A stretch of 32,330 nucleotides of DNA, from assembly GCA_017550385.1 (NCBI GenBank), contig JAFZPJ010000006.1:1-32330 (forward strand), written 5' to 3'. Of the stretch, positions 3,586 through 7,682 are shown in pieces (the first letter of the stretch is position 1; every line of letters starts with the position of its first letter). Position numbers and translations under genes: made by a program. Origin of the DNA: Clostridiales bacterium (lineage in GTDB: Bacteria > Bacillota > Clostridia > Saccharofermentanales > Saccharofermentanaceae). Under the pieces are notes generated by a model. That model was given only the letters and a program-made list of their open reading frames with translations, was not told the DNA's origin and did not search any database.

Positions 3586-4779
3586 TCAAGGATTGATCGT
3601 TGTCTTATCAGCGTTGGAAGATCTAACCAGGCAGATGTATGACTTACCGCGGTTGACCTCGACCTCTTCGCCGTCTTCATTGTAGACCTTGATGGGCTCG
3701 TGTACGTCTGTCTTCGTCCAAGTTACATTGATGATCTTGCCGTCGCAGATGTAGTAACCGGAACCGCCTTCTTCGAAGAAGTAGTCTGTACGGTAGTTAT
3801 CGTCTGCAAGAGCAACTCTTACGTAGAGAACGAATACGTTCGTAACAGCGATCTGATTGCCGTTGTTCTCGTCGATCTGAGGATCGCCGTACTGGCTCTT
3901 GTAGTAGAGACCATCGCCTTCGTTGTACTCGAAGTAAGCGTCATCATTGGAAGCTGAGAAGTAAACGTTAATTGAAGAGCATGTCTCTGTAGCGTTCTCG
4001 ATATCCTTGGAGTTATCGGGAACGAAATTGAACATCATGGGTGTCTCGTCTTCGCCTGTAGCGAGATCGATGCCCTTGTACTCGAGCGCTTCCTTGATGT
4101 GTGTACCGTCAGATACAGCTGTGTGCTCGATAGCTCTCTTGCTTGCCCAGTCCTTGTCTCTCCAGAAGAATGTGCTGCCGGGGAGATCAACGTAGCCGTC
4201 TTCGTAATCGGAAGAGCTGTACTTGCCTGCGCACAGGTAGTTACCGTCGATGTGTACGATGTTGTTGTTGGAGAAGTAGGATACGACTCTTGCTTCACGG
4301 CCGAAGTGTACGAAGATCGCATTAAGACCTGCGGACAGGTTAGCCGTTACAACACGCGCACTTCTGAGGGAACCGATCTCAGGGATCGTATTAACGTCAG
4401 CGAAAACGCAGAGCAGACGGGAGATGCCGCCCTCAGTCTCGTACTCGAAAATAGCGTCTGCCTCGGAAACGCCTCTCTGGGGCATTGCGGCATAAACGTT
4501 ATTTACAACGATGGTGATAGGCTTGTTGCCGACATTCTCAAGATCCATATCCTGAACACCTGTGATGGGGTTAAGACCATACGGGAGATCGGGATCATAG
4601 AGAACGGGTTCTGTCTCTGTAGTTGTCGTAGCTTCAGTCGTGGTCGTCTCAGAAGGCTCTGAAGCCATGACGGTCGTAGTAGTTGTTGTTGTCTCAGGAG
4701 TCTCTTCCTTCTTGCAAGCCGCAAAGGGGATAGCAAGCGTCAGAATGAGCATCGCTGAAAGTAGTTTTTTTGTTTTCAT
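3586..4779 (-). CDS. DUF3048 family lipoprotein (YerB-like)
   Basis: A 397-residue predicted lipoprotein: charged start MKTKK, hydrophobic stretch, then lipobox IPFAAC with Cys22. Residues about 28-60 are a Thr/Glu/Ser linker with runs of six and four threonines, followed by the DUF3048 fold (YGLNPITG near 66, then NNVYAAMPQRGVSEADAI, IGSLRSAR and FVHFGREARV). The closest characterised relative I know is Bacillus YerB, whose function is not established, so no reaction is assigned. The start has GAGG about 9 bases upstream. It is transcribed away from the LCP gene from a shared 125-base intergenic region. A similar Thr-rich linker occurs in the membrane protein at 6012-7682, suggesting both span or sit in the same wall layer (inference). 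Confidence 0.85.
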   Translation of the reverse strand: MKTKKLLSAMLILTLAIPFAACKKEETPETTTTTTTVMASEPSETTTTEATTTTETEPVLYDPDLPYGLNPITGVQDMDLENVGNKPITIVVNNVYAAMPQRGVSEADAIFEYETEGGISRLLCVFADVNTIPEIGSLRSARVVTANLSAGLNAIFVHFGREARVVSYFSNNNIVHIDGNYLCAGKYSSSDYEDGYVDLPGSTFFWRDKDWASKRAIEHTAVSDGTHIKEALEYKGIDLATGEDETPMMFNFVPDNSKDIENATETCSSINVYFSASNDDAYFEYNEGDGLYYKSQYGDPQIDENNGNQIAVTNVFVLYVRVALADDNYRTDYFFEEGGSGYYICDGKIINVTWTKTDVHEPIKVYNEDGEEVEVNRGKSYICLVRSSNADKTTINP

Positions 4780-4904: not shown

Positions 4905-6008
4905 ATGAGTAAAAAGAGCTCGGATTCTTCTTTTGTTCAAACGAAGAAGAAGTCTAAAGCTGTGAAATATAGTGTCAGGATCATTCTCGGCATCCTCGGT
5001 TTTATCGTGGGTGCTGCTCTGTATTTTGTCTGGATCTTCGGCGGCACGTATGTCGCTATCCCCATTGTTTCCGAGGAAGAGTACGAGACCATGGTCTTAA
5101 GTGCCGATATGAGCACTACCGGCGGTGACGTCACTTCACCGTGGTCAGCCGGCGGTCATACGAGGCTTTATTATGACCCTGAACACCCGATAATCAAGGT
5201 CGAACAGATAGACCCGAATGTTGAGAACATTCTTGTTTTCGGTGTCGATTCGAGAGGTACCGACGATTACAAGTGCAGGACCGATGCCATGATAGTCGTA
5301 TCCATCAATAAGCAGGCGGGTACGGTTAAGCTCATCTCGCTCATGAGGGATACCGGCGTATATATCGGCGATACCGATGAGACGGCTTCAACAAAGCTGG
5401 ACAAGCTCAATGCCGCATATGCTTACGGCGGAGTAGGGCTCATGATCAACACGATCAACAGGAACTTCGGCCTCGATATCCAGAGATTCGTTATGCTGGA
5501 CTTCGGCAGCTCAGCCGAGCTCATCGATCTTGTTGGCGGTGTTGAGATAGACGTCGCTCCCGAGGAAGTAAAGTATGCAAACCCTTATATCCAGGAGATC
5601 AACGCCCTTAACGGCACCGATTCTCCGCTTCTTACGACCAGCGGCCTTCAGAATCTTGACGGAACTCAGGCTACCGGCTGGGCCAGGATCAGATATCTCG
5701 ATTCGGATTTCGTAAGAACATCGCGCCAGAGAACAGTTGCGATGGCGATGATGAAGAAAGTAAGCAACATGAGCTACGTGGCGCAGCTCATGCTCCTCAA
5801 TGACTCTGCCGGAGTCTTTGAGACCAACATGGTATCAATGGACCTCATGCGTGTTGCGACCAATGCGATGGGAGGCCTTGATAATATTCAGGAGTACCGC
5901 GTTCCTGCAGACGGCCTTTATACCGTTCAGAACAATCCGTGGATGATGATAATTGACTTTGAAACTCAGAAACAGTTATTATATGATTTTATTTGGGGAG
6001 ACGCTTAA
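4905..6008 (+). CDS. LytR-CpsA-Psr (LCP) family wall-polymer ligase
   Basis: LCP enzymes move undecaprenyl-linked glycopolymers (teichoic acids, capsule) onto peptidoglycan outside the membrane. The 367-residue protein has a basic cytoplasmic start (1-22), one membrane helix (about 24-50), and the LCP domain from about 105. The conserved pyrophosphate and Mg-binding residues are visible: VFGVDSRG (111-118, Asp115 and Arg117), CRTDAM (124-129), SLMRDT (145-150), KLNAAYAYGG (167-176), and RIRYLDSDFVRTSRQ (261-275) with its arginines. So it should be active; the polymer transferred is unknown. It is first in a two-gene unit: its stop is 3 bases before the next start, so expression is coupled to the pseudophosphatase-like protein. 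ATG 4905 is preceded by GGAG at a 7-base distance. Confidence 0.93.
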   Translation: MSKKSSDSSFVQTKKKSKAVKYSVRIILGILGFIVGAALYFVWIFGGTYVAIPIVSEEEYETMVLSADMSTTGGDVTSPWSAGGHTRLYYDPEHPIIKVEQIDPNVENILVFGVDSRGTDDYKCRTDAMIVVSINKQAGTVKLISLMRDTGVYIGDTDETASTKLDKLNAAYAYGGVGLMINTINRNFGLDIQRFVMLDFGSSAELIDLVGGVEIDVAPEEVKYANPYIQEINALNGTDSPLLTTSGLQNLDGTQATGWARIRYLDSDFVRTSRQRTVAMAMMKKVSNMSYVAQLMLLNDSAGVFETNMVSMDLMRVATNAMGGLDNIQEYRVPADGLYTVQNNPWMMIIDFETQKQLLYDFIWGDA

Positions 6009-6011
6009 CCT

Positions 6012-7682
6012 ATGAGTAAAACAGTAGCAACTTGTATAGCAGAAACCAACCAGGCCCAGAATATGCCTCAGGAGAACGTATTCTTCCTGACGCTCTCTCG
6101 TAAACTCGAGGATTTTCCCAACGAGTTCCTCAGAACGGCAAGATCGACATCTCCTATCCAGATCTGTGCTATCTTCTCGACGATCGGTCCCGATAACCTT
6201 GCAGCCGTTCTCAACCTTGAGCTCAACAACGAGCTTGAGAAGATCGTTGCAGCTGCATCCAACCAGCCGGTCCTTGATTTCGAAGGATTCTCTAATCAGG
6301 TAATCAATACACTTAACGTAAGAGTCTGCAACTTTGCTGCCAACAAGGGTCAGCAGTTCAAGACATCAATGACCATGCTCGTTATCGAGGGAGACATCCT
6401 GCGTGTAATCCATGTCGGTGTTACAAAGGCTGTCCTCTTCAGAGACCAGCGCATCATGCTCCTCACTGAAGAGCAGACTGTTGCTCACAGATACGTACAG
6501 CTCGGCTCCATCACAGCTGATCAGGAGAAGACACATCCCGAGAACATGAACCTTACACAGTATCTGGGCAAGATGCCTCAGGACGGTCAGGTTCAGGCTG
6601 ACAGGAAGATCCACCTTAAGCTCAAGGACGGCGACGAACTCTTCCTCATGGGTCTCGGAATCTCCAGACAGATGCCGCCACAGATGCGCAATCAGATCAT
6701 TGCCAAGCCTGTATCCACGGAGAACAAGGCTAAGGAGATGATCGCTTCCGCAGTAAACTACGGCATCAAGTCCGGTCTTACTTTCGTTGACCTCAAGGTT
6801 GAGTCTACATTCCTGCTTCCCGGCGATGCAGTTATCGGAAGCAACCTCAATTCTGACGGCAGAGTTGCCCAGCAGAAGGCTAAGTCTCCCGAAGATGCTT
6901 ATACATCTTTCGGTGGCGGTGCCGCTGCAGGTGCTAAGGGCGGTGAAGAGGAGAATACCATCAGCTTCGTTCCCGGCCGCGGCAGCGATGATGATGATTT
7001 CGTGCCCGTAGTCAACGAGAAGAAGGAGAGGATCATGTCCGTCGTTATCCCGCTGGTCATCTTCCTCGGATGCATCGTTCTCGGCTTCGGTGTTATGTTC
7101 CTCGTATTCAATATGAAGAACCTCATCGACTTCGATCAGGAAGAGACGACGCAGACGATCACTATCGGCTCCGTTCTCTATGTTATTAACGACAACACAC
7201 CTGTTTATTCACAGAATGATACGAATTCCACTATCATCGGCTACCTCAACAGAGGCGACGTCGTAACTCTCTCCGAAGAGACCGACGAGACCTTCAAGAA
7301 GGTCGTAACCGGTGACGGCAAGGAAGGATACATCATGTCGGCTGCACTCTCCACAGAAGATCCGACCATCTATGATGAGACATCTTCCGAGATGCTCGAA
7401 GATCCGACACCCGTACCGGAAGAGACAACTTCCGAGACTACAACTGCAGCTGCTACTGAAGCTACAACTACTACTGCAGATCCTGCACAGAACACTCAGG
7501 CTACAACAACGGCATCTGAGACAACTTCTGAGACTACTACAGAAGAGACTACTACAGTTGATCCTAATACTGTTGAGCCTGGTGAGATACCTGAAGATAC
7601 AACAGCTGCTCCTGCTGAGCCTGAGACTCCAGCAGAACCTGCACCTGCTGATCCTGGCACAGGCGACGCTGGTGAAGTTTAA
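6012..7682 (+). CDS. Membrane protein: degenerate PP2C-like cytoplasmic domain, one TM helix, external SH3 domain, Thr-rich tail
   Basis: 556 residues. Residues about 5-264 follow the order of a PPM/PP2C Ser/Thr phosphatase: beta-strand TSMTMLVIEGDILRVIHVG (118-136) and TKAVLFRD (138-145); LTEEQTVAHRYVQLGSIT (151-168); HPENMNLTQYLG (175-186); and LKDGDELFLMGLG (204-216). The metal-binding aspartates are gone: the usual GDS is GVT (136-138), SDG is MGL (213-215), DGMGG is replaced near FSTIGPD (55-61), and the late RDN motif is SGLTF (254-258). Catalysis is therefore unlikely and a sensing or scaffold role is inferred. One helix spans about 341-366, then a bacterial SH3-type domain (388-446, ending EGYIMSAAL) and a Thr/Glu/Pro-rich tail (465-550), both predicted outside. 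No signal peptide is seen, so the N-terminus stays cytoplasmic. ACA- and GTT-rich codon use suggests strong expression. The PP2C assignment rests on pattern matching by eye. Confidence 0.75.
   Translation: MSKTVATCIAETNQAQNMPQENVFFLTLSRKLEDFPNEFLRTARSTSPIQICAIFSTIGPDNLAAVLNLELNNELEKIVAAASNQPVLDFEGFSNQVINTLNVRVCNFAANKGQQFKTSMTMLVIEGDILRVIHVGVTKAVLFRDQRIMLLTEEQTVAHRYVQLGSITADQEKTHPENMNLTQYLGKMPQDGQVQADRKIHLKLKDGDELFLMGLGISRQMPPQMRNQIIAKPVSTENKAKEMIASAVNYGIKSGLTFVDLKVESTFLLPGDAVIGSNLNSDGRVAQQKAKSPEDAYTSFGGGAAAGAKGGEEENTISFVPGRGSDDDDFVPVVNEKKERIMSVVIPLVIFLGCIVLGFGVMFLVFNMKNLIDFDQEETTQTITIGSVLYVINDNTPVYSQNDTNSTIIGYLNRGDVVTLSEETDETFKKVVTGDGKEGYIMSAALSTEDPTIYDETSSEMLEDPTPVPEETTSETTTAAATEATTTTADPAQNTQATTTASETTSETTTEETTTVDPNTVEPGEIPEDTTAAPAEPETPAEPAPADPGTGDAGEV
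7405..7580 (+). repeat. Low-complexity Thr/Glu/Ser-coding tract
   Basis: Imperfect repeats of ACA/ACT threonine codons with GAG/GAA and TCT/TCC encode the tail of the preceding protein (units such as ETTSETTT occur twice). This is protein-level low complexity, not a mobile or tandem DNA repeat. It may vary in length between strains. Confidence 0.75.

Follow-up and report, generated by a model that had tools for sequence, protein, structure and literature searches.

Architecture of the protein and its relationship to PP2C phosphatases

What does a membrane protein gain from a PP2C-type phosphatase domain whose metal-binding residues have all been replaced? The gene that raises this question lies in a 32,330-nucleotide stretch of Clostridiales DNA (the window), at the position and on the strand given by the initial annotation (table 1). 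That annotation also described a single membrane-spanning helix, followed by an SH3 domain outside the cell and a tail rich in Thr, a layout that stands: SH3_3 scores above the Pfam cut-off, a helix is predicted from hydropathy, and in 91 of 94 family sequences with a single helix lysine and arginine are commoner on its N-terminal than on its C-terminal side, which argues that the PP2C part is inside the cell and the SH3 domain outside. SH3_3 was detected at E ≤ 0.01 in 17 of the 19 full-length sequences scanned. Past the SH3 domain lies a DPT...DPTPVP stretch (window positions 7350–7421); P469 is invariant in 19/19 full-length sequences.

Table 1. Position of the gene, its upstream neighbour and the predicted parts of its product in the window.
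Feature	Position	Strand	Basis or remark
LytR-CpsA-Psr (LCP) wall-polymer ligase gene	4905–6008	+	E = 1e-34; 3 bases upstream of the ORF
ORF, 556 aa	6012–7682	+	PP2C-type domain, linker, one helix, SH3_3, Thr-rich tail
PP2C-like domain, residues 1–273	6012–6830	+	five metal-ligand acids and phosphate-binding Arg (Q16) gone
Cytoplasmic linker, residues 274–344	6831–7043	+	sequence-variable
NTISF motif, residues 315–319	6954–6968	+	contains T316; resembles IreB/ReoM kinase site
Predicted transmembrane helix, residues 345–365	7044–7106	+	hydropathy; N-terminus inside
Predicted external SH3_3 domain, residues 395–446	7194–7349	+	Pfam 31.9 bits, cut-off 27
Predicted external Thr/Pro/Glu-rich tail, residues 447–556	7350–7679	+	sequence composition

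Residues 83–257 match the NCBIfam model NF033484 (Stp1/IreP) with E = 2.1e-16, although the score of 60.1 bits is far below the curated cut-off of 230 bits; the Pfam PP2C score, at 13.6 bits, is below threshold. Solved Stp enzymes were matched by phmmer (best E = 1.8e-8), a 51-row profile recovered solved Stp1 (2pk0; E = 2.2e-13), and profile–profile comparison with six active membrane PP2Cs gave a probability of 99.6 and E = 7e-24 over 270 columns. These matches bear out the PP2C relationship first proposed: by sequence comparison residues 1–273 are a PP2C-type domain, which presumably adopts the PP2C fold. The protein resembles the Stp1/IreP/PrpC-type phosphatases over the NF033484 region and in the order of its motifs, but differs from them in having no metal-ligand acids and in carrying a helix, an SH3 domain and a tail.

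Named relatives were found at 70 loci, 61–100% identical and many of them from rumen or gut. Their records are titled Saccharofermentans, Mageeibacillus, Ruminococcaceae or Clostridia (genus was taken from the titles), and the host family is apparently that of Saccharofermentans. Within the window's genus the gene was present in 31 of the 35 genomes examined, once as a contig-end piece; the four genomes without it are 64–90% complete. A long homologue was found in 28 of 30 genomes examined from the family's other genera; genome G165 yielded Stp-length matches only, and genome G096 short pieces and no long homologue.

Loss of the catalytic site and retention of the domain

At the five metal-ligand columns the window protein has Q20 (E of NED), S56 (D of DG), V137 (D of GDS), L215 (D of SDG) and S254 (D of KDN). 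We took a census of these columns in 98 family sequences, comprising the window protein, the 70 named loci and 27 sequences from other genera, and found no aspartate or glutamate at any of them (98 readable rows for NED, DG and GDS, 97 for SDG and 96 for KDN, the numbers being uneven because two rows contain stretches of N). All five acids are present in 7/7 active membrane PP2Cs and 11/11 Stp sequences. The replacement of the metal-binding aspartates, originally proposed for this one protein, thus extends throughout the family. Two of the motif pairings behind that proposal need correction: SDG aligns with GLG (residues 214–216) rather than MGL, and the DGMGG loop, described as lost, is present and reads STIGP (56–60).

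The same census rules out that the aspartates have merely shifted. Around the DG and GDS sites, two columns to either side, every row is free of acids, and around the SDG and KDN sites one row each has an acid; at NED, the invariant E21 occupies the position of the neighbouring D, and 27 rows have an acid two columns earlier. The replacements are themselves fixed, NED having become QEN and DG having become S[TACS] in 98/98 (Q20 and S56 in all 98), while N13 and D61 are newly fixed. Phosphate binding by PP2C enzymes is done by an arginine, which is lost in 97 of the 98 rows. Taken at the level of sequence, these changes indicate a PP2C domain that is probably catalytically inactive.

The dead domain is nevertheless better conserved than its live counterparts. 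Mean identity among 17 genomes was 80% for the dead domain versus 56% for their PP2C/Stp sequences, and the dead domain was the more conserved in 136 of 136 pairs; with the removal of two genomes in which the PP2C compared is possibly a different paralogue, the values were 83% versus 61% and 105 of 105 pairs. Usable dS (between 0.1 and 2) was obtained for 77 of 153 pairs, in which the dN/dS ratio had a median of 0.079 and a maximum of 0.16, values that are approximate because dS is high in most pairs shown. By these measures the domain is retained under strong purifying selection. Such selection despite the lost metal-binding residues suggests an enzyme that has been turned into a signalling scaffold reaching the cell wall.

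Relatives with intact and partly lost catalytic sites

Another family of the order has a PP2C frame of 540–653 aa in 7 of the 12 genomes examined. These membrane PP2Cs align with the window protein's domain with few gaps and share its helix, and five of the seven (L033, L034, L036, L037 and L038, but not L035 or L172) have an LCP gene directly upstream, as in the window. They differ in possessing all the catalytic residues, and in that their helix is C-terminal, following a long linker, with almost no ectodomain and no SH3 domain. Two genomes of a third family (L176 and L178) encode a half-dead form, a membrane PP2C beside an LCP gene, with a helix and a tail rich in Thr. It keeps the DG and DN acids and has lost the E of NED and the aspartates of GDS and SDG. 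One of these intermediates was scanned with Pfam, which found PP2C and did not find SH3.

In a tree of 42 rows the 19 dead sequences form one clade (100/100), placed within a membrane group of 31 rows that stands apart from the 11 Stp rows (100/99); the exact place of the dead clade is less sure because its stem is long, at 1.81 changes per column. The membrane group also takes in three short tail-anchored PP2Cs, on long branches, and a clade of the dead, active and intermediate forms that leaves them out was rejected (AU p = 0.025). They come from other families of the order (L039:3992–5044, L040:4300–5361 and L041:2026–2970), and by eye each is missing the Asp of GDS. Genes near them look, by their sequence, like smpB and tsaD.

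On this phylogenetic evidence, the most likely origin of the dead protein is a membrane PP2C of the kind that another family of the order still has in active form. That enzyme, anchored in the membrane and with an LCP gene as its partner, would have lost catalysis in the ancestor of the family, and the same lineage would have gained the extracellular SH3 domain and the wall-facing tail. The change from enzyme to scaffold would then be traceable in living relatives, as active, half-dead and dead forms that mostly keep the same gene neighbour.

A possible link to PASTA-kinase signalling

The initial annotation suggested, with a 'perhaps', a PASTA-kinase pathway. This link has indirect support: the window's genome encodes a kinase with three PASTA stretches (L048) beside a canonical Stp, together with IreB, which all 28 other genomes examined have as well. 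The linker of the window protein carries an invariant IreB-like threonine as well; any particular partner is still conjecture. T316 is the only invariant column of residues 276–343 (68/68 aligned rows), and F or Y stands at +3 from it in 66 of the 68. The strict motif [DENQ]-T-x-x-[FY] occurs in 61/68 linkers against a mean of 5.1 and a maximum of 12 in 1000 shuffles, a count that is a description and not an independent test, because the motif had been noticed before counting, and one made on rows that are related to each other. Elsewhere in the protein the strict motif is found in 0/69 N-domains and in 32/69 of the Thr-rich external parts. As a family-wide trait it was rejected, since only 1 of 25 linkers from other genera has it, not above shuffles (mean 1.5). 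Most linkers of the second large genus (L151–L169) have a conserved Thr stretch of their own, either APTIQS[DE]ELR or a sequence close to it. A second aromatic motif is seen in the aligned linkers (window positions 6900–6911), with F/Y297 in 65/68 rows and F300 in 56/67.

The likeness to IreB and its Listeria homologue ReoM lies in a threonine followed by an aromatic residue in a flexible segment, the spacing being compared with the IreB of these genomes, all 29 of which have T-x-[RK]-F near the N-terminus. In ReoM, Thr7 is phosphorylated by the PASTA kinase PrkA (PMC7286690). IreB and ReoM differ in being small soluble proteins, and what they have in common with the window protein is the shape of the motif alone. 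In C. difficile, GXT is the only enriched phosphothreonine motif reported in the parts of PMC9674922 drawn on here, and it differs from the T316 motif, which speaks against a PrkC site here. The IreB-like linker threonine, in a genome with a PASTA kinase, Stp and IreB, makes PrkC a candidate kinase for T316, which it may phosphorylate. A lineage devoid of FHA readers was also considered and rejected: none was found in the window's 85% complete genome, but FHA is present in 27 of 28 other genomes. In one member of the genus a further PP2C, separate from Stp/PrkC, lies directly 5' of what by eye is a kinase-like ORF (L050:4711–7200).

The reading that we prefer, to which we give a probability of a little under one half (about 0.48), is that the protein is a receptor-type pseudophosphatase scaffold in the PrkC/Stp/IreB wall-integrity pathway. 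The dead PP2C domain would be kept as a cytoplasmic binding platform, the SH3 domain and tail would contact the wall outside, and phosphorylation of linker T316 by PrkC would act as a switch on what is bound by that domain at the membrane. A more elaborate version is distinctly more speculative: a wall-sensing transmembrane receptor that mirrors the PASTA kinase, in which the cytoplasmic half, a metal-less pseudophosphatase that arose from an active membrane phosphatase via a half-dead intermediate, is switched by PrkC on an IreB-like threonine, giving a four-part wall-integrity circuit in which it joins the kinase, the live phosphatase and IreB. Either way, PASTA-kinase wall signalling in Clostridia would have one more member, and the idea can be tested at a single residue, T316.

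Other roles considered

The leading alternative, which we consider unlikely, is that the dead phosphatase holds or regulates the LCP ligase, its operon partner, to place wall glycopolymers, with no role in PrkC signalling. Of the 70 named loci, 45 have an LCP gene immediately upstream; among those with 1100 bases or more of upstream sequence the count is 44 of 63. The 12/12 other-genus loci examined and 2/2 intermediates also have this neighbour. Its presence upstream of active, intermediate and dead forms alike suggests that the pairing probably predates the loss of catalysis, and this favours an LCP adaptor. The dead domain persists, however, in the 19 of 63 loci where no LCP gene is adjacent, and in five such genomes that were searched only distant LCP paralogues, of 28–32% identity, were found. 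These observations weaken the case for LCP as an obligate partner, and the pair looks ancient but dispensable. Three of these five genomes were searched for IreB, and all three have it. Many loci also retain, close to the dead phosphatase gene, a DUF3048 gene that is divergent from the LCP gene (window positions 3586–4779); they include 7 of the 19 named loci without an adjacent LCP gene.

The emptied pocket might instead bind phospho-IreB or phospho-T316 as a phosphothreonine reader or decoy, in competition with Stp. The resemblance of the linker motif to the IreB site of the same genome group and the fixation of the pocket columns speak for such a role, which we regard as improbable given the near-universal loss of the phosphate-binding arginine; a dead pocket without it favours a protein-binding surface over a phosphate reader. 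Somewhat less probable again is a passive wall anchor, in which SH3 and tail fasten membrane and wall together while the cytoplasmic domain merely prevents the protein from sliding out. SH3_3 and the external tails of family members, which are long and rich in Thr, Ser, Pro, Glu or Gly, would suit an anchor; against this, the invariant columns of 19 full-length sequences lie nearly all within the dead domain, with few outside.

That the protein has remained an enzyme, one that uses metal differently or catalyses some other reaction, is very improbable. E21 and D61 are invariant in 98/98 and could be cited in its favour, but in the alignment they match different columns of the active enzymes, all five ligand columns have no acid, and PHLPP2 binds one zinc yet showed no activity (PMC12002173). 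A decaying relic on its way out is scarcely credible, since beyond the lost active site nothing favours it, and the dN/dS of at most 0.16 and the 61–100% identity across the named loci tell against it.

Comparison with known systems

The initial annotation knew of no described family with this layout, a statement that is not supported in that form. PstP of M. tuberculosis does combine a PP2C domain, one helix and an extracellular domain, but it is an Mn-dependent active enzyme and its ectodomain has 191 residues (PMC3052367). The eukaryotic PPM pseudophosphatases TAB1 and PHLPP2, each with one metal bound at its M2 site, offer a parallel as dead PP2C domains kept for a non-catalytic role (PMC12002173); they differ in that one metal is still bound, whereas the window protein has none of the five ligand acids. 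We assume that they and the window protein are independent in origin. Bacterial kinases and phosphatases have been reviewed (PMC6213207), and in the parts drawn on here of a 2025 review of bacterial pseudokinases the word 'pseudophosphatase' occurs once, in a reference title (PMC12599244). A literature search of titles and abstract openings found no bacterial PP2C pseudophosphatase described. Pseudophosphatases of the PP2C type are known from eukaryotes, and the window protein, judged by its residues, appears to be a bacterial case.
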